This document shows, in pieces, positions 30,344 through 39,685 of a DNA stretch of 41,840 nt (the stretch's first letter is position 1; every line of letters starts with the position of its first letter). Both the position numbers and the translations under genes were made by a program. The DNA lies in the NCBI GenBank assembly GCA_013329255.1, contig DUKM01000002.1:1-41840 (forward strand), read 5' to 3'. The notes under the pieces are model-generated. The model was not told where the DNA came from. It was given only the letters and a program-made list of their open reading frames with translations, and ran no database searches. Source of the DNA: Candidatus Poseidoniaceae archaeon (GTDB taxonomy: Archaea > Thermoplasmatota > Poseidoniia > Poseidoniales > Poseidoniaceae).

Positions 30344-31495
30344 ATGCAACCCCCTACCCCACCCGCAGCCCCGCCCGCGCCAGCGCCGCCAATGCCAATG
30401 GCTCCAGCCGCCCCCGCAGCACCTGTTGCGCCAGCACCACCAATGCCGGCAGCACCAGCACCAGCAGCACCAGCGGCCCCAGCCCCAGCACCAGCAGCAC
30501 CGGCCGCTCCGGCCCAGCCGAAGCACCAAGCCACACCCGAGGTCAAAGCTCGCTTGACCCACGTCGGCGCAATCTCTCAAGCGATTGCTGCTGAAGTGCA
30601 GAAAGTGATTATCGGTAAGCCCCACGTTATCGACAACGTGTTGATCAACATCTTGTCGAACGGTAACCTTCTCTTCGAAGATTACCCTGGTTTGGCGAAG
30701 ACCTTGATGACCAACACCTTCGCTGATGCGTTGGGTTGCGATTTCAAGCGTGTCCAATTCACGCCTGACTTGCTCCCTGCTGACATCACAGGTACCAACA
30801 TCTACGACGCAAAGAAGGGTGAATTCACCTTCAAGCCAGGACCTCTGTTCTGCAACCTTCTTCTTGCTGACGAGATTAACCGTGCTCCTCCAAAGACCCA
30901 AGCTGCTTTGCTTGAGGCTATGCAAGAGAAGCAGGTGACCATTGGTACGGTTACTCACAAACTCCCTGCACCGTTCATTGTTATGGCCACTCAAAACCCG
31001 GTCGAGCAAGAAGGTACCTACCCGCTTCCTGAAGCACAACTTGACCGTTTCATGTTCAAGATGTCCGTGGGCTACCCAGACCGTGCTGACGAAGACGAAA
31101 TTCTGCGCCGACGTATTGCTCGTGGTAAGGACGCCGTCGATGTCGATGTGATCACTGACCCACAGCGAGTTATCGCTATGCAACAAGCTTGTGAAGACGT
31201 TTACGTCGACCCTGCTCTCCGCATGTACATGGTCGAAATCGTGTCACGAACCCGTGAAGATCCTCGTGTTCTTGTCGGTGCTTCGCCCCGTGGTTCCCAA
31301 GCATTGCTCAAGACATCCCGTGCAGCAGCAGCCCTTCGTGGTCGTGACTTCGTCACACCTGACGACATCAAGGCTGTCTCTGAACTTGCTATCGCACACC
31401 GAATTATTCTCAAGCCTGAGCATCAAATCAAAGGCCTTGAGCCTGGTGAAGTGATTCAAGCGATCCTACGAGAAGTCCCTGTGCCAACTGTTTGA
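30344..31495 (+). CDS. moxR: MoxR-family AAA+ ATPase with Pro/Ala-rich N-terminal tail
   Basis: AAA+ chaperone-like ATPase thought to remodel or activate client complexes, usually with vWA or DUF58 proteins. After a 59-residue tail made almost only of Pro and Ala, the AAA core has Walker A DYPGLAKT (K119, T120), ITGTNIYD, Walker B LLLADEINRAPPKTQAALLEAMQE start (172-179), sensor 1 ATQNPVEQEGTYPLPEAQLDRF and sensor 2 ASPRGSQALLK. The first Gly of the P-loop is Asp, which is common in archaeal MoxR. The 383-residue length exceeds the usual 310-330 by the tail. Ribosome site GGAGGA (30330-30335) is 8 bases from the ATG. Confidence 0.93.
   Translation: MQPPTPPAAPPAPAPPMPMAPAAPAAPVAPAPPMPAAPAPAAPAAPAPAPAAPAAPAQPKHQATPEVKARLTHVGAISQAIAAEVQKVIIGKPHVIDNVLINILSNGNLLFEDYPGLAKTLMTNTFADALGCDFKRVQFTPDLLPADITGTNIYDAKKGEFTFKPGPLFCNLLLADEINRAPPKTQAALLEAMQEKQVTIGTVTHKLPAPFIVMATQNPVEQEGTYPLPEAQLDRFMFKMSVGYPDRADEDEILRRRIARGKDAVDVDVITDPQRVIAMQQACEDVYVDPALRMYMVEIVSRTREDPRVLVGASPRGSQALLKTSRAAAALRGRDFVTPDDIKAVSELAIAHRIILKPEHQIKGLEPGEVIQAILREVPVPTV
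30347..30520 (+). repeat. Low-complexity Pro/Ala-coding tract
   Basis: Codons 2-59 of moxR are nearly all CCN and GCN, with short reiterations of CCAGCACCAGCAGCA type, giving much higher GC than the flanks and a strong strand asymmetry. On the opposite strand this creates long spurious Gly/Ala frames. The tract is prone to length change by slippage. The encoded segment should be an extended, uncharged linker. Confidence 0.85.
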
Positions 31496-32857: not shown

Positions 32858-33781
32858 ATGACTGTAAACAAGCCATCCAGCGATACCGCCCACTTGTACG
32901 ACGGAAAGACCGTTCGTTCTTCTGCCCCTTCACGAAAGAAGGCAGCTGGACAAATTGGGTCCGGAAGCGAAATCCCCAAGGACGCAATCCCGACCGTCGA
33001 AATACCTTCTTTCATCGAAAGTTTGCTCGGCGGACCATTGGTCCCGAAAACCAAGTTTTTGCCACCGGCAAAGTGGGTACAAACCCTTCAACTCTGTGTG
33101 TATGGGGTACTTGTGGCTCTTGCCATGCTCACCTACATGATTTCTCCACCAGAGGGCACCATCTGGTACATGCTTACTGGAAGCCTCAGCATCGCTACGA
33201 TTCTGCAGTTGGTCTTGATTGTCACCGCTACAGGAACCGGCTTTTGGGGCACCTTCCAACGCGACGGGCGGTTCACTTTGATCAGCAACATTCTGTTCAT
33301 TCTCGCCATTTTGCGATTCGCATCATCGAAGGTGACCCTGTCAAGTGATTTGTTTGGATTGCAAGACAAACCTTTCCTTCTCTCTGCACTTGTTGTTATT
33401 TACGCAGTGTTGCTCATCATGTACTTTGAACTCAGCAACGGTGTGCTCCGGTATTCAATGCTGGACACGAGCATCCGCACCAATGAAGTGTATGTGATGA
33501 ACCCTCTGAAAATTGTCGGTAAGTACCACCGCTCGTTGATCATCAACCCAATCATTGCGGTTGTTCTTGCGACAGTCGTGCTTTCTGCAAACACAATTCT
33601 TCCGTTCTTTGTCGGTATCTTCTCCAAGGATACTGCAACTCGGATGGAAGAATCGGTTGAACTGATTTCCGTCTATGGCGTTGCCCTTGGAACCTTCTTT
33701 GTCTTCTGTGTTGTTGGAGGACTGTTTGCCCTCAACCTTCCAATGCACCTGCAAAAATTCCGTGAGAAGCGTGCAGAGTGA
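32858..33781 (+). CDS. Polytopic membrane protein closing the MoxR island
   Basis: A 307-residue protein: a soluble, Ser/Lys-rich N-terminus (about 1-70), then about six hydrophobic segments (around 76-95, 103-125, 138-155, 168-187, 230-250 and 270-293), with a polar loop near 190-225 that includes NEVYVMNPLKIVGKYHRSL. I do not recognise the family. GAGGTGA (32847-32853) is 4 bases before the ATG. Its place at the end of the DUF4350-moxR-DUF58 row suggests it is the membrane client or platform of this system. It converges on the aspartate kinase gene, with stops 1 base apart. Confidence 0.75.
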   Translation: MTVNKPSSDTAHLYDGKTVRSSAPSRKKAAGQIGSGSEIPKDAIPTVEIPSFIESLLGGPLVPKTKFLPPAKWVQTLQLCVYGVLVALAMLTYMISPPEGTIWYMLTGSLSIATILQLVLIVTATGTGFWGTFQRDGRFTLISNILFILAILRFASSKVTLSSDLFGLQDKPFLLSALVVIYAVLLIMYFELSNGVLRYSMLDTSIRTNEVYVMNPLKIVGKYHRSLIINPIIAVVLATVVLSANTILPFFVGIFSKDTATRMEESVELISVYGVALGTFFVFCVVGGLFALNLPMHLQKFREKRAE

Positions 33782-33782
33782 T

Positions 33783-35114
33783 TCAGTCATTTGACTGCAA
33801 GGTGTGCTTTAATCCACACCGCTGACTCAATTGATGCAACAAATCAACCATATCGTCATTTTTAGTTAGCATTCGAACCGCATGCCCGGTATCGGACAGG
33901 ACTTCGATGCCCAACCGTGCAGATTCATCCGAGTGCCAGCCTTCCCGCTGTGCATCGAACTGGTTCCCTACGAGGGAAATGATAGCGCTGAAGGATTCAG
34001 TTTCGGTGGTTCCAAATTGTTTTTCGATCAACTCACGCGCCACCTCTACATCGTGTTGCGACACAATCCATCGCAGTTCACCAGGTTGTGCATCCAAATG
34101 CCAACAAGCGATTTCGGCTTGAGCCAAATCCACCAACACATCACCCAACTTCCCACTTTGCTGCCCGAGTGACTTGGTTTGGCAACGAATTGAGACCACA
34201 CGGGGCAAGCAGCCGATCGCCTTGATGACGTTCGCTTCATACAAATCTGGACCGATCACTGTAGCGGCCTGCGTTTGCATCGAACCGCGAAGATGTCTAA
34301 TCTCGAGTGGAATGCCCGTGTCGGCGAGGGGTTCCACTGTTGCTGGATGAAGAATGGGCGTGTCAAGGCGAGAAAGTTCCATTGCCTCACCATAGCCGAG
34401 GTAGGAAATTGGCTCAGTTTCGATGCCCCATCGGGGATTGAGGGGCAAAACTCCCTCGACGTCTTTCCAAAGAATCACTCGTGAAGCATCGACCAATCGA
34501 GCAATCGAAGTAGCGGTATGGTCGGAGCCACCTCGGCTTAGCAGCGCCAGTTCCCCATCGTTGCCTTCGCCAAACCAACCCGTGATCACCGGGGTGTCGT
34601 GAAGCGCTTTGCGGTCAAGCAGCCCCATCGATGCTGCCAAATCAACGGTGGGTGCTCTGTTGATGCCGTTAAGCCTCAGTCCTATGTCCTCGGAACCAAC
34701 CGGGTGGGCGACGATGCCGTGCTGTTTGAGGCGATGAGCCACAACCAAAGCAGAGAGGCGTTCACCTGCAGCAAGAAGTCGGTTGACCGCCACGCGGTCG
34801 GCAGGCTGCTTTGCCAGTTCGACGAGCGATTGTTCAATGCCGGTGAGTACTTTTGTGAACAAGGGACCGAGTTCGCTTTTGAGCAAACCTGGGGCAAAAC
34901 GCAAGTGTTGACTCGACAAATCATTGACCAGCCGGCTGGCGTACCGAGGCTCTTTGCTCGCTCGCATCAGCCGGTCCGTTGTGCCCCACAGAGCGGAAAC
35001 CACAACGATTGATTGCCCCTTCCAATCGCCAATCACTTCAGCGATTCGATCCAAATCCGTGGCGTCCCGAAGGCACGAACCACCAAATTTGTGAACCGTG
35101 AGGGTTTCATTCAT
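33783..35114 (-). CDS. lysC: Aspartate kinase
   Basis: Phosphorylates L-aspartate, the first step to aspartate semialdehyde, hence to Thr, Met and Lys, and here also to the ADTH synthase substrate. The 443 residues contain the kinase motif VHKFGGSCLRD (residues 7-17), VVSALWGTTDRL, an ITGWFG stretch and LLSRGGSDHTATSIA (substrate and ATP site), then two ACT domains (about 300-440), usually the site of amino acid feedback. It is monofunctional, with no homoserine dehydrogenase. ATG 35114 has GGAGG (35123-35127) about 8 bases upstream and overlaps the stop of aroC by 8 bases; the frame could start 8 codons earlier. Confidence 0.93.
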   Translation of the reverse strand: MNETLTVHKFGGSCLRDATDLDRIAEVIGDWKGQSIVVVSALWGTTDRLMRASKEPRYASRLVNDLSSQHLRFAPGLLKSELGPLFTKVLTGIEQSLVELAKQPADRVAVNRLLAAGERLSALVVAHRLKQHGIVAHPVGSEDIGLRLNGINRAPTVDLAASMGLLDRKALHDTPVITGWFGEGNDGELALLSRGGSDHTATSIARLVDASRVILWKDVEGVLPLNPRWGIETEPISYLGYGEAMELSRLDTPILHPATVEPLADTGIPLEIRHLRGSMQTQAATVIGPDLYEANVIKAIGCLPRVVSIRCQTKSLGQQSGKLGDVLVDLAQAEIACWHLDAQPGELRWIVSQHDVEVARELIEKQFGTTETESFSAIISLVGNQFDAQREGWHSDESARLGIEVLSDTGHAVRMLTKNDDMVDLLHQLSQRCGLKHTLQSND

Positions 35115-36189
35115 CGAGGTAACCTCCACGAAGGGCAAGGTCCGTCAGCACCAATGTGGCCATTGCTTCGACAACAGCAACCGCACGAGGGCCGAGCACG
35201 GGGTCATGCCTGCCTTTGACAGTAAGCGGTTCCATTGCCCCAGTTTTGAGGTTCAAGGTTATTTGTTCTGAAGCGATGCTTGAGGGTGGCTTGAAAGCTA
35301 CAGAGCAGCAGAGGGGCGCTCCAGTGGCCAATCCAGCGAGAGCGCCATCTGGACGTTCTCCTAGTGGTTCAGGATGCTCTGGCGAACCGCCCCAAGCATC
35401 GTTATGATCAACTCCATTCATTGAAACAACTGAGAAGCCGCGACCAAACGTCACACCTCGTGCAGCAGGAATGGCCATCATGGCTCGAGCCATAGCAGGT
35501 TCAATCCCATCAAACCACGGTTCACCTAAACCAAATGGAATCCCTTGAACCGTGAGATCAACCCTGCTTCCTATAGAATTGAGGTTCATTCGATGCTTTT
35601 CAACGGTATCCACCATGGCTTGAGCAGCCACTGGGTCCCTGCATCGCATTTCTTTGCAGGCTTCATCAGCCCACCGTGGAGGCTGTTCGAGCATAGGCCC
35701 TGACGTGACATCTCCTATGGCGCCAACCTGCGCTTCAATTTCAACGCCGAGCGAGGCAAGCAAGGGTGCGACAAACGCCGATGCCGCAACCAAAGGTGCA
35801 GTCAAGCGCGCCGAAGATGTACCGCCTCCACGAAGGTCAGCCTGCCCCTTAGTGCGCTTGTGCATCACCATGTCTTGATGGCCCGGCCGGGGGTGATTAG
35901 GGAGAAAACTGTAGTCTTTGGATTTGGCATCTTGATTTTCGATTGAGAGTTCAATCGCTTCGCCTGTCGTGCGCCCTTCTGCCACACCGCTCAACACTTC
36001 GACCTTGTCTTCTTCTGTGCGTTTGCTCGCATACCGACCGCCGGGGCGGCGTGAAATCATGGCGGTACGGATTCCTTCTTCATCAACAATAAGGCCTTTT
36101 GGAACCCCTTCCAACACGGCGCCGACTCTTGGCCCGTGGCTTGTCCCAAAAAGGGTCAAGCGAAGTTGTTCACCGAACTGCATCTGCAT
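35107..36189 (-). CDS. aroC: Chorismate synthase
   Basis: FMN-dependent enzyme converting 5-enolpyruvylshikimate 3-phosphate to chorismate. The 360 residues match the family, with LTLFGTSHGPRVGAVLEGVP at the start, SRRPGGRYASKRTEEDKVE, RPGHQDMVMHKRTKGQADLRGGGTSSAR-type region (first signature), GVTFGRGF, and the late GRHDPVLGPRAVAVVEAM segment containing the conserved catalytic Asp/His neighbourhood. The start may be ATG 36189 or the second Met at 36183; neither has a strong ribosome site. It is the fourth enzyme gene of the aromatic operon and is followed by an overlapping lysC. The gap from shikimate kinase is 61 bases. EPSP synthase, needed just before this step, is not in the window. Confidence 0.95.
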   Translation of the reverse strand: MQMQFGEQLRLTLFGTSHGPRVGAVLEGVPKGLIVDEEGIRTAMISRRPGGRYASKRTEEDKVEVLSGVAEGRTTGEAIELSIENQDAKSKDYSFLPNHPRPGHQDMVMHKRTKGQADLRGGGTSSARLTAPLVAASAFVAPLLASLGVEIEAQVGAIGDVTSGPMLEQPPRWADEACKEMRCRDPVAAQAMVDTVEKHRMNLNSIGSRVDLTVQGIPFGLGEPWFDGIEPAMARAMMAIPAARGVTFGRGFSVVSMNGVDHNDAWGGSPEHPEPLGERPDGALAGLATGAPLCCSVAFKPPSSIASEQITLNLKTGAMEPLTVKGRHDPVLGPRAVAVVEAMATLVLTDLALRGGYLDE

Positions 36190-36250
36190 GTAATTCGCTC
36201 TATGCCAGCCGCACTTCCTTCAAGAAGGTGCGTGCGAGACCATAGGAGGT

Positions 36251-37159
36251 TCACTCGTCTGAAACCTGACTCAAAAATGTTGTTTCAATGACGGTGATTC
36301 CATCCTTGCGAGAATCAAAGAATTTTTTCAATCGTTCACATGTGGGTTTGCTGACCTTTGGGGCCACGATCACCAAAGCAGAGCCAGAACCAGACAAACC
36401 TGCTGCGCGTGCCCCATTCATCAGAGCGTCATTTGTCAGTTTTCGACCGTCTAAATCGCCCAAAACCCCAATCATAGCGCGCCCGTTCCAAGTCAGAGCG
36501 ACCAATTCCCGCCCTTCTTGTAAGGCGCTCAAGGCTTGTTGGAAGGCAGCCGTATGAGGCACAAAATCGTCCATGACTGGTCTGTGTTCTCGGTCGCCTC
36601 GGCAGATGAGGAGAACATACCAATCTTCGGAACTGGGACCCGGGCTCTCGAGGAGCACGCCTTCTTGAATGGTTTCCGCCTGAGTGTCAATCAGTTTCCA
36701 ACCGGTTGTGGCGCAGGCCCAAGCATCGTCAATCGAACCTGTGAGGGAAACGCCCGATTCAATTTGCGCTTGGGCGGCGATGGCCACGGTCTCTGCATCC
36801 TCAATTTCAATTGAGGTGGCATCTGCGAGTGCACGGATTGCTGCAACAGCAATTGCTGCGCTGGATTTGAGGCCTTGACGAGGTGGTATTTTTGAGGCAA
36901 CGGCCCAGTGCAGCTCTTCCGCTGAGCGATCTTGAGGAAAGGGGTGGCCAGCGTTGGACCAAGCCGCAAGCACGCACTTTAGCAACCCATCTGGATCTTC
37001 TAATGTCCGCTTACTTGGAGCATCGAGAAGCCGCACTGCTACCGCCAAATCAAGCGCGACGCTCGCTCCATAGCCCAAGCCAGCTGCATGAAGGAGGCTA
37101 CAAGCACCATGTGCCTCGCCGTTTCCTAGTACCGCCACAGTTTCACCTCTCGAAGACAT
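36251..37159 (-). CDS. aroK: Shikimate kinase, archaeal GHMP type
   Basis: Phosphorylates shikimate at O3 using ATP. It belongs to the GHMP superfamily and is unrelated to bacterial AroK. The 302 residues show the GHMP pattern: an N-terminal substrate strand with LHAAGLGYGASVALDLAVAV, the ATP loop PPRQGLKSSAAIA (about 92-104), SLTGSIDDAWA (catalytic Asp region) and the C-terminal GARAAGLSGSGSALVIVA glycine motif. I prefer ATG 37159 (17-base overlap with the DHQ synthase gene) over GTG 37192 (50-base overlap); homology begins just after the ATG. Its position between DHQ synthase and chorismate synthase confirms the assignment. Confidence 0.9.
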   Translation of the reverse strand: MSSRGETVAVLGNGEAHGACSLLHAAGLGYGASVALDLAVAVRLLDAPSKRTLEDPDGLLKCVLAAWSNAGHPFPQDRSAEELHWAVASKIPPRQGLKSSAAIAVAAIRALADATSIEIEDAETVAIAAQAQIESGVSLTGSIDDAWACATTGWKLIDTQAETIQEGVLLESPGPSSEDWYVLLICRGDREHRPVMDDFVPHTAAFQQALSALQEGRELVALTWNGRAMIGVLGDLDGRKLTNDALMNGARAAGLSGSGSALVIVAPKVSKPTCERLKKFFDSRKDGITVIETTFLSQVSDE

Positions 37160-38153
37160 TGCTCGAGATAGCGACGCCAATGTGGCGTGCACCAGTGTCG
37201 TTCCAGCCTAGGATTTCATCGCCAATGGAGATTGAAGTCACTGACACTGGAATTCCGGATGAATCGACGGCTCGGACCGTCTCTGCTTGTTGTAAGAACA
37301 TATGCCCCTTTTTATGGTTGGCATTCATCCATTTTAGCAGCAAAAGGGGGCGTTGTTCAATTTTGAGCCTGCCAATAACAACATGGCGTGAACGGCCTTC
37401 ATGGTTGACCACTGTGACGTTGTCGCCGGAAGACAACTCTGCCAGGTATTTGGTTGAGCCGTCCGCCATCAGCGTGTAGGATTGCGGCGATCCAGCGTTG
37501 ACTCTGAACGGGCGGACAGGTACAAATTCCGACGGCACAGTTTCACCGTGAACCAGCATGAAACTTGAGGCGTTAGAACCGATGAGCATGCCTTCCCCAG
37601 GGCGAAGCAGTGAAGTGAAATCAATGCAATACCGTTCCCCAAGCCCTCCATCTTCAACTGAGGTGATGGTCAGGACAGTTGGAAGGATTTCAGATGTGAC
37701 TTCGTGGGCTGTCTTGGTCCGTGAATCAGGTCGTTCTAAGCGCTGGGCCAATGCAATTTGCGAGGCTTCAATCAAGCCGTTCGTTTCGCCAACCACAATC
37801 GCATCCACACCTCGCTCAAGAGCAAAAGCGGCGCCTTGGATTTGGGATGCCTCGGTGAGCATTGCTGCGATTTTAGTCGGCGTTCCTTCTGCCGCCGCAA
37901 TGAAATTCTCAAGTGGAATCATCGACCAATCCTCAAACGAAACTAACAGCCATTCAACGCTACCAATCAGCGCTCTTGCATCGTCTTGATGCGTACCATC
38001 TCGGATGTGGACATATGCCCCAATCACAGTCCCATTAAGCAGGATTTTCTTTCCTTCGATGGACATTCCTTCTCCACCGATGCTTCGAGTAAAACCACTG
38101 GGCAACGTTTTCTCGCCGGCGAGGACATCGCGTCGGTCGATCCACAATTCCAT
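37143..38153 (-). CDS. aroB': 3-dehydroquinate synthase, archaeal type II
   Basis: NAD+-dependent enzyme that oxidatively deaminates and cyclises ADTH (2-amino-3,7-dideoxy-D-threo-hept-6-ulosonate) to 3-dehydroquinate, replacing bacterial AroB. The 336 residues match the archaeal family (MJ1249 type): start ELWIDRRD, ERGVDAIVVGETNGLIEA, RYCIDFTSLLRPGEGMLIGSNASS, the RPFRVNAGSPQSYTLMADG stretch, KYLAELSSGD and VIGRLKIEQRPLLL. ATG 38153 follows a GAGGG site by about 7 bases, and the aldolase stop lies 11 bases upstream, so the two first steps of the route are coupled. Archaeal type rather than bacterial type is certain from the sequence pattern. Confidence 0.93.
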   Translation of the reverse strand: MELWIDRRDVLAGEKTLPSGFTRSIGGEGMSIEGKKILLNGTVIGAYVHIRDGTHQDDARALIGSVEWLLVSFEDWSMIPLENFIAAAEGTPTKIAAMLTEASQIQGAAFALERGVDAIVVGETNGLIEASQIALAQRLERPDSRTKTAHEVTSEILPTVLTITSVEDGGLGERYCIDFTSLLRPGEGMLIGSNASSFMLVHGETVPSEFVPVRPFRVNAGSPQSYTLMADGSTKYLAELSSGDNVTVVNHEGRSRHVVIGRLKIEQRPLLLLKWMNANHKKGHMFLQQAETVRAVDSSGIPVSVTSISIGDEILGWNDTGARHIGVAISSNVFER

Positions 38154-38164
38154 GACATTCCCTC

Positions 38165-38962
38165 TCACAGTTGACACGCGCTCATGGCATCTTCAACAGA
38201 GGCATTTTGATGCACCAGCATCACGAGTGCACGAGCGATGCCTTCGACGTTTTCATGGGCAAACACCTGCCGGCCCATGCACACGCCAGAGGCGCCTGCG
38301 TCGAGGGCAGATCGAACCATCGTGAGGATACCATGGCTGTCACCGGTGGATGGACCACCTGCAACCAACACCGGAATTGGTGCAGCAGAGGTGATGATCT
38401 TGAACGCTTCTGCATCCCCATTCCACACGGTTTTGGCAGCGTCACATCCGAGTTCAAAGGCCAGCCTCACCGCATGGGCATTGCCTCCAGTTGCGTCCCC
38501 TTCGATTGGGTCAAGGTACTCGCCTCGGGCGTACACCATGCCAAACATTGGCAGGTTGTGATGAAGGGCTTCTCTGCTGATTTGGCCCATTCGTTCAATC
38601 ATCTGAGCTTCATTTGGGCTTCCCATGTTGACTTGGCATGAAACGCCAAGTCCACCGCGTGGCAGAACCTCATCAGCATGACCAACCAGGACCTTGTTTG
38701 CCCCATCGGGGCCAGCATGCCTTGTCGATACTGAAAAATGAATCACCATCGAAGTCGCTGTACCTTCGCACAAGTGGTGATAATGTGAAACAAGACCTTT
38801 CTGAGCGATAATTCCATCCACACCGGCTGCGATCAGGGATCGAATTACTCCTTCAGTATCCGTCAATCCTGGAATTGGGAAATCCGAAGCACCGTGGTCG
38901 ATTGGAATCCAAACGCCCCGGCCTTGTGGCAGCAACTTAGCCATCCGTGCTGCTTTGTCCAT
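38165..38962 (-). CDS. aroA': ADTH synthase (DhnA-type class I aldolase family)
   Basis: 2-amino-3,7-dideoxy-D-threo-hept-6-ulosonate synthase condenses a deoxyketohexose phosphate with L-aspartate semialdehyde, the first step of the archaeal aromatic route. The 265 residues contain PIDHGASDFP (D22), the YARGE box (Y144) and GCDAAKTVWNGD with the Schiff-base K177, then VLVAGGPSTGD and GVCMGRQVF for phosphate binding. The same fold includes archaeal fructose-bisphosphate aldolase, but the neighbouring DHQ synthase II and aspartate kinase favour ADTH synthase. It starts with ATG after a GGGTGG-like site, 48 bases after the HTH regulator. Confidence 0.9.
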   Translation of the reverse strand: MDKAARMAKLLPQGRGVWIPIDHGASDFPIPGLTDTEGVIRSLIAAGVDGIIAQKGLVSHYHHLCEGTATSMVIHFSVSTRHAGPDGANKVLVGHADEVLPRGGLGVSCQVNMGSPNEAQMIERMGQISREALHHNLPMFGMVYARGEYLDPIEGDATGGNAHAVRLAFELGCDAAKTVWNGDAEAFKIITSAAPIPVLVAGGPSTGDSHGILTMVRSALDAGASGVCMGRQVFAHENVEGIARALVMLVHQNASVEDAMSACQL

Positions 38963-39010
38963 GTCGAGTCCACCCGGTCTCCATTCTCAAGGTTTTGCAC
39001 CTCGAAGGAA

Positions 39011-39646
39011 TCATTCAATTTGCTCGGAACTCCAATGCATCATCGCAATTTCTGCTCTGCTGAGGTGTTCTTGAAGGGTCGATCGAGGGGTGTCGATGAG
39101 TTCTGCGAGTTCTCGCAAATTGATTTTCTTTGGGTGCTCATAATACCCCGAGGATACAGCGATTTTCATGCACTCAATTTGGCGCTCTGTCAGTAAGGTT
39201 TCGATGATGCTGGTGTTGCTTTCCATTTCCACAACTTTCACTGAATCGGGAGGGAGTTGGGTGCGTGCAATTTTCAAAAAGTCGGAGATCCCGCTCGGAA
39301 CACCTCTCACCTTGATCGAAATCCCCTCGCCGCCGTAGGTGTAGGGTGGTAGAATATGGATGTTTGAAAATTTAATTGCAGCGATAGAGAGTGGATGGGA
39401 ATTCCATACGACAAGATAACCCCCGTCACCAACACCCAACGTAGCCTCGACTGTTAGAAACGGAACCTCATTGAGATCCTCAGGCCCCATGCCTTCACAA
39501 AAAGTGGGATGAATGAGTTGCCGGATGCCGTCTTCTCCTATATCCAAATGCCCTACAACCTCCAAAACATGCGCAATTTTGGCAATTGGCGCATATTCTG
39601 ATGTGGCCACCGTTTCGGCAGTCCAAGTGAGGTGGATTTCTCGCAT
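39011..39646 (-). CDS. Bat-type HTH_10 transcriptional regulator
   Basis: A 211-residue DNA-binding protein. The C-terminal 55 residues (about 150-201) are a clear HTH_10 domain: LLTERQIECMKIAVSSGYYE, followed by KKINLRELAELIDTPRSTLQEHLSRAE, as in haloarchaeal Bat-family regulators. The N-terminal 145 residues are a mixed alpha/beta region of a type common in this family and may sense a ligand; I see no PAS or GAF signature. The gene is first in a minus-strand row with the aromatic pathway genes, so it may regulate or autoregulate that operon. A TATA-like box sits 25 bases before its ATG and there is no ribosome site, suggesting a leaderless message. Confidence 0.87.
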   Translation of the reverse strand: MREIHLTWTAETVATSEYAPIAKIAHVLEVVGHLDIGEDGIRQLIHPTFCEGMGPEDLNEVPFLTVEATLGVGDGGYLVVWNSHPLSIAAIKFSNIHILPPYTYGGEGISIKVRGVPSGISDFLKIARTQLPPDSVKVVEMESNTSIIETLLTERQIECMKIAVSSGYYEHPKKINLRELAELIDTPRSTLQEHLSRAEIAMMHWSSEQIE

Positions 39647-39667: not shown

Positions 39668-39675
39668 GATATAAA
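39668..39675 (-). promoter_or_regulatory. TATA box of the HTH_10 / aromatic operon
   Basis: On the minus strand TTTATATC is centred 25-26 bases before the A of ATG 39646. This is the best TATA match in the window and the spacing predicts that transcription begins at or within a base or two of the start codon. Confidence 0.5.
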
Positions 39676-39685
39676 TTGTGCACCT

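Follow-up and report, generated by a model that had tools for sequence, protein, structure and literature searches.

A Marine Group II chorismate operon whose aspartate kinase has probably become a dedicated first step and lost feedback control

The locus and its genes

Here, we describe a group of six genes in a Candidatus Poseidoniales (Marine Group II) genome that is 74% complete. The window refers to the whole stretch of DNA that was analyzed, which is 41,840 nucleotides long. On its minus strand, the genes follow each other in the order HTH_10 regulator, ADTH synthase (ADTHS), DHQ synthase II (DHQSII), shikimate kinase (SK), chorismate synthase (AroC) and aspartate kinase (AK) (Table 1). 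Profile matches confirm a sequence-only reading of this DNA, according to which all six are co-directed and separated by overlaps or short gaps. ADTHS and DHQSII overlap by 13 nt and DHQSII and SK by 50 nt, and there are gaps of 48 nt between HTH_10 and ADTHS and of 61 nt between SK and AroC. The AroC/AK overlap depends on the AK start and measures 8 nt with the ATG at 35114 or 32 nt with the TTG at 35138. The ATG is the most likely start, being preferred because of a GGAGG 9-13 nt upstream. A convergent membrane-protein gene (32858-33781) has its stop one base from that of AK.

Table 1. Coordinates of the genes and promoter-like elements at the locus
Feature	Position	Strand	Profile match (E-value) or placement
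HTH_10 (Bat-like) regulator	39011..39646	-	Pfam HTH_10 4.8e-15
ADTH synthase (2-amino-3,7-dideoxy-D-threo-hept-6-ulosonate synthase; ADTHS), user of aspartate semialdehyde (ASA)	38165..38962	-	NF005556 5.8e-69, TIGR01949 8.8e-63, both under cut-off
3-Dehydroquinate synthase II (DHQSII)	37143..38177	-	PF01959 1.3e-82
Archaeal (GHMP-type) shikimate kinase (SK)	36251..37192	-	TIGR01920 1.1e-29
Chorismate synthase AroC	35107..36189	-	PF01264 5e-98, TIGR00033 2e-93
AK with two divergent ACT folds	33783..35114 (33783..35138 if TTG start)	-	PF00696 3.7e-33, TIGR00656 2.4e-51
TATA-like box ATTTATAT	39669..39676	-	~26 nt 5' of the HTH_10 ATG
Conserved element TGCAAAACCTTGAGAA, putative promoter/operator	38984..38999	-	-37 to -22 of the ADTHS ATG

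Several of the NCBIfam scores fall short of the curated cut-offs, which marks the proteins concerned as divergent members of their families. The window proteins were compared with the proteins of 36 loci (one of them, L070, without matches), 18 loci that lack AK and 80 named loci. Genome searches covered 59 Poseidoniales genomes, 35 from the window's genus and 24 from a second group; judged by similarity to the named loci, these probably correspond to Poseidoniaceae and Thalassarchaeaceae, respectively. Both families, and the order Ca. Poseidoniales, are named in records matched by the AK alignment. DHQSII was found in 55 of the 59 genomes. Residues D22, H23, Y144 and K177 of ADTHS, which we take to be catalytic, are invariant in all 31 aligned sequences. 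ADTHS adjoins DHQSII, also in the 18 loci without AK, which is the arrangement of an ADTH-type dehydroquinate pathway.

The regulator and promoter-like elements

The C-terminal HTH_10 domain that marks this kind of regulator is present in 26/26 aligned members. In the predicted structure (pLDDT 88.5), the N-terminal half forms two tandem beta-alpha-beta-beta-alpha-beta repeats, which are ferredoxin-like, and our guess is that it might be a ligand domain. The best solved match of the regulator is Ta1207 (5m86; Z 9.9 over 136 residues), and Foldseek returned no match at E<=0.001.

The TATA-like box is a probable promoter of the regulator gene, whose transcript would be leaderless. With a simple pattern and uncertain starts, TATA-like sequences were seen in 5 of 16 HTH_10 upstream regions, the window included, and in none of those of ADTHS (0/26), DHQSII (0/24), SK (0/23), AroC (0/28) or AK (0/26, with the window AK start placed at 35111). 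The element upstream of ADTHS is not a plain TATA box, since no such pattern precedes this gene. The element is the 16-mer TGCRAAACCTTGAGAA, which lies between HTH_10 and ADTHS and covers -37 to -22 relative to the ADTHS ATG; leaderless archaeal mRNAs are expected to have their promoter there, so ADTHS probably has its own promoter. It occupies an equal position in many Poseidoniaceae, and variants such as TGCAAAGTATTGAGAA hold that place in relatives in which HTH_10 was not detected. The proposal of a regulator-led operon is therefore only partly borne out: HTH_10 does head the genes and is followed by a conserved element, but a variant of this element persists where HTH_10 was not found.

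Exact matches to TGCRAAACCTTGAGAA occur in 10 of the 36 genomes searched, each with a single copy, which always lies at ADTHS. Allowing one mismatch gave seven matches elsewhere, in six genomes, versus three for a reversed control pattern, and the element pattern was absent from 23 short loci around Asd, the aspartate-semialdehyde dehydrogenase. A search for such a site before the genes of the missing steps (aroD, aroE, aroA) had been suggested; as exact copies are confined to ADTHS (10/10), we rejected a regulon under this element. An operator claim based on the dyad GCAAAACC...GGTTTTGC was also dropped, as inspection places the dyad in some relatives only.

Conservation of the gene order within and outside the order

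AroC and AK are adjacent and on the same strand in 83/83 loci, drawn from two overlapping locus sets in which at least eight contigs are identical in length, and the two genes overlap in 76 of these loci with automatically chosen starts. In the named set, 48 of the 80 loci (including L157, whose title is bacterial) were taken as Poseidoniales, and all 48 have AroC next to AK. The divergence of AK tracks that of the rest of the locus, with a Mantel r of 0.88 that was reached by 0 of 999 permutations. The gene arrangement is not due to chance. Within the order, the adjacency of AroC and AK is nevertheless weak evidence of coupling when taken alone, because the unrelated MoxR-DUF58-TM genes that flank the operon are equally syntenic with it. 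In two lineages (L165 and L166), the AroC-AK pair lies on the strand opposite SK-DHQSII-ADTHS.

Two loci from outside the order provide independent cases of linkage between AK and ADTHS. The first, L194, from euryarchaeote CPBay_Spr30G08_8, has a divergent TrpY-family regulator followed by ADTHS, DHQSII, AroDE, SK, AroA, AroC, Asd, AK and TrpE. The gene given as AroDE scored as AroE and resembles AroD-AroE, and inspection shows more Trp-type ORFs after TrpE. ADTHS, DHQSII, SK, AroC and AK stand in the same relative order as in Poseidoniales, but L194 differs in containing AroDE, AroA, Asd and trp genes as well, and homoserine dehydrogenase is retained in its genome. Judged from gene content, the Poseidoniales order is the L194 set minus AroDE, AroA, Asd and the Trp genes. 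In the second, L181 from Nitrospirota, AK is followed 12 nt later by ADTHS. Since the genomes of L194 and L181 both have homoserine dehydrogenase (PF00742), the linkage of AK and ADTHS does not require a dedicated AK.

With L194 in mind, the gene order might be what is left, frozen, of an ancestral L194-like aro/trp supercluster, in which case adjacency would carry no present regulatory meaning. Both the identical relative order in L194, to which aroDE, aroA, asd and trp genes are added, and the equal synteny of unrelated flanking genes fit such a history. We nevertheless regard it as quite improbable in view of the frequent AroC/AK overlap (again with automatically chosen starts), the survival of the AroC-AK pair through the inversion in L165 and L166, and the bacterial AK-ADTHS pair of L181.

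Aspartate kinase and its ACT domains

The protein is predicted to be an aspartate kinase from its AA_kinase domain, AK-type motifs and C-terminal tandem ACT fold. Residues K8 F9 G10 G11 S12, G116 E117, R193 G195 S196 D197 and W215 D217 are invariant in 19/19 members of the order. It scores under both equivalog cut-offs (175 versus 402.25 bits for TIGR00656 and 168.8 versus 208.7 for TIGR00657), and the TIGR00657 cut-off is passed in only 4 of 59 genomes, which indicates a divergent subgroup. In the AK alignments A1 and A2, the first column is the residue that follows Met; A2 covers 44 of the 80 named loci, having skipped L150 and L174 (internal stops or N) and left out L201.

The presence of two ACT domains, which had been claimed from the sequence, was upheld by structure prediction. 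Pfam ACT gave no match in the window AK even at E<=10, yet both folds appear in the AlphaFold model (pLDDT 92.4, pTM 0.91), which aligns end to end with ACT-bearing aspartokinases. Among solved structures, the threonine-sensitive aspartokinase of Methanocaldococcus jannaschii (3c1n, 2hmf) is the nearest relative in both sequence profile and fold. Against 3c1n, the Methanocaldococcus AK with threonine, the model reaches a Z of 38.4 and an rmsd of 2.9 over 424 aligned residues at 22% identity. The ACT region of the window's sub-clade retains an I-x-C-W motif.

AK is a textbook branch-point enzyme under Lys and Thr control. A Lys/Thr feedback-regulated AK would be recognized by an S-[E/Q] effector pair in ACT1, presumably the equivalent of E. 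coli S345/E346, and a QGSSE-type motif in ACT2. Of 46 Poseidoniales AKs, none has the pair, which is common in other AKs (23 of 32). By inspection, the ACT2 motif was not seen in Poseidoniales AKs either; in both respects they differ from the M. jannaschii enzyme. The nine other AKs without the pair include the ADTHS-linked ones of L194 and L181.

The ACT regions have also diverged far more than the kinase domains to which they are attached. At 60-70% kinase identity, ACT identity is 25.3% in Poseidoniales (261 pairs), where the kinase domains are 63% identical, versus 67% at 61% kinase identity for other AKs, of which only 3 pairs fall in this bin. The corresponding values are 22.9% (251 pairs) versus 63.6% (10 pairs) at 50-60% kinase identity and 18.3% (249 pairs) versus 27.2% (154 pairs) at 35-40%, in a comparison whose pairs are non-independent, whose close pairs among other AKs are largely Bacteroidota, and which omitted pairs with <60 aligned ACT columns as well as L164, L174 and L176, whose sequences were short or unreadable. 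In the sub-clade L158-L163, portions of both ACT regions are deleted.

The ACT domains had been suggested to sense an aromatic amino acid. If they had been re-tuned to Trp, Phe, Tyr or chorismate, AK would be a first committed step under end-product feedback, and one could cite for this that both ACT folds are kept with high confidence and that some motifs, such as I-x-C-W, are kept in sub-clades. We consider it very improbable, as the family has no shared site, ACT identity falls to 25% where the kinase domains are 63% identical, and L158-L163 have lost parts of both regions. Together, the motif loss and divergence point to relaxed control rather than to a new conserved sensor, and we infer that feedback on AK has been lost in Poseidoniales.

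The sole aspartate kinase and other users of ASA

AK is the only aspartate kinase per genome. The window's own genome holds four AA kinases, the other three being carbamate kinase, isopentenyl phosphate kinase and UMP kinase. Apart from ADTHS, the main enzymes that draw on ASA are homoserine dehydrogenase (PF00742) and DapA (PF00701). Neither was found in any of the 59 Poseidoniales genomes, and each was found in 14/14 controls; PF00742 is also absent from four further Poseidoniales genomes (0/4). Among these known routes from ASA, the absence of the other two leaves ADTHS alone. The claim that AK is tied to the pathway as its precursor supply gains from these results, and AK and Asd most likely feed ADTHS alone. 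The sequence-only reading had named as contrary evidence a single AK with Lys/Thr-type ACT sites and a promoter for each gene. The AK is indeed single, but its ACT sites are not of that type, and promoter-like signals were found for at most two of the six genes.

PF02774 proved a weak detector of Asd (23/59) and was replaced by an alignment search, which found Asd in 45 of the 59 genomes. These comprise 32 of the 35 genomes of the window's genus (not G000, G012 or G014) and 13 of the 24 in the second group, one as a fragment. The window's own genome, which is 74% complete, yielded no Asd in this search. Classification of six Asd sequences identified them as aspartate-semialdehyde dehydrogenase, with the best scores for archaeal-type models. 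AroDE, AroA and Trp genes were absent near Asd in 20 stretches; in the three that were classed, its neighbors are RmuC, methyltransferase, glycosyltransferase and exosome/RRM-type genes.

AK might also feed another user of ASA, for example direct sulfur transfer to ASA to give homocysteine (DUF39/NIL-ferredoxin), and so not be dedicated to aromatics. Such a route has been proposed for methanogens and a Desulfovibrio in an excerpt of PMC5764234. We think a second user unlikely, given that AK lies in the chorismate operon across the AK-bearing order and that neither the homoserine nor the DapA route was found.

Thalassarchaeaceae without aspartate kinase

AK is missing in 18 of the 24 Thalassarchaeaceae genomes, which retain ADTHS-DHQSII-SK-AroC. 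The stops of AroC and the TM gene are -10 to 65 nt apart in these loci, a clean gene absence. In a seven-gene tree, the 18 genomes form one clade nested among AK-bearing lineages, which suggests that AK was lost once. The ADTHS residues D22/H23, Y144 and K177 are retained in all 18. Asd was undetected by the alignment search in nine of them, and also in the AK-bearing G042 and G054. A substitute kinase was sought and rejected: the 20 AA kinases in 8 of the 18 genomes are all UMP, isopentenyl phosphate or carbamate kinases, among the matches listed.

In this clade, ADTHS may obtain ASA from an undescribed source or take a different substrate, although we put this forward as a doubtful explanation. 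The clade is the strongest result against a strict bond between AK and the pathway, against which the AroC-AK inversion in two lineages also speaks. With the pathway and without AK, it turns the source of ASA into a directly testable question.

A dedicated first step for chorismate

From the gene order, the single AK, the missing branches, the loss of ACT motifs and the predicted fold, the locus is probably a chorismate operon in which AK has turned into a dedicated first step and lost its feedback control. AK, together with Asd, which is encoded elsewhere in relatives, would convert aspartate to ASA; ADTHS would condense ASA with a 6-deoxy-ketohexose phosphate; and DHQSII would give 3-dehydroquinate, with the route continuing to chorismate, from which aromatic compounds derive. 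We infer these enzyme activities, as well as the transcript structure and the absence of feedback. The ACT domains would have kept their fold while losing the common effector motif and drifting in sequence, and supply would be governed by co-expression of the operon genes and their translational coupling, not by Lys/Thr allostery. In a lineage without the homoserine and diaminopimelate branches, AK would need no Thr/Lys feedback, and the locus may serve as a natural experiment on the fate of ACT control once branches vanish. In the surface ocean, Marine Group II ranks among the most abundant groups of archaea, and in its members AK looks single-purpose for the aromatic route, with an allosteric region that is apparently drifting.

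AK may work like Ask_Ect, the specialized aspartokinase of ectoine gene clusters described in an excerpt of PMC5924519. There too, an AK is encoded inside the operon of an ASA-consuming pathway, and feedback residues are unconserved in the group. Ask_Ect is an additional paralogue, in the ect cluster, for a solute, whereas the Poseidoniales AK is the sole AK, in an aro cluster, for chorismate; the likeness is one of working and not of membership. The ADTH (AroA'/AroB') route to dehydroquinate itself goes back to work on M. jannaschii (White 2004, as cited in an excerpt of PMC1173090), where ADTHS and DHQSII likewise provide the first two steps from ASA. In Poseidoniales, unlike in that account, AK shares the operon of the pathway.

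In the literature searched, no paper joined hept-6-ulosonate with aspartate kinase, although an earlier notice of the AK-aro linkage may exist, and none joined Marine Group II with shikimate and aspartate. The excerpted text of PMC6336850 has nothing on this pathway. In excerpts of a survey (PMC6461757), Poseidoniales are described as being without amino acid biosynthesis genes. The chorismate operon qualifies that statement as it appears there, and if the description holds, chorismate may serve a non-amino-acid use.

Aspartate kinase and the aromatic operon

In 18 Thalassarchaeaceae loci (L110-L127), aspartate kinase (AK) is cleanly absent between AroC and the convergent membrane-protein gene, and the run of ADTH synthase, DHQSII, shikimate kinase and AroC is retained; aspartate-semialdehyde dehydrogenase was not detectable in 9 of these 18 genomes. 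Linkage outside Poseidoniales is listed in the table. Near the Nitrospirota pair, an ORF on the opposite strand resembles, as judged by eye, a NIL/ferredoxin protein.

Features of the window and of loci outside Poseidoniales
Feature	Location	Source
16-mer upstream of ADTH synthase, highly conserved	38984-38999	window
HTH_10 regulator	39011-39646	window
N-terminal extension of MoxR-like ATPase, Pro/Ala-rich	30344-30520	window
aro-asd-ask-trp supercluster, TrpY at flank	L194:2266-14656	euryarchaeote CPBay_Spr30G08_8
AK, then ADTH synthase after 12 nt	L181:1035-3963	Nitrospirota contig

The N-terminal half of the HTH_10 regulator, a tandem ferredoxin-like arrangement in the predicted model, is similar to Thermoplasma Ta1207 (5m86, Z 9.9). 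The 16-mer has a single exact copy per genome in the 10 of 36 genomes with an exact match, and shows a partial dyad in some relatives. In most relatives, the match to the MoxR-like ATPase starts only at residue 57-60.

The Poseidoniales locus is also present in a record titled as Rhodobiaceae bacterium (L157), probably a mis-binned or mislabelled MAG.
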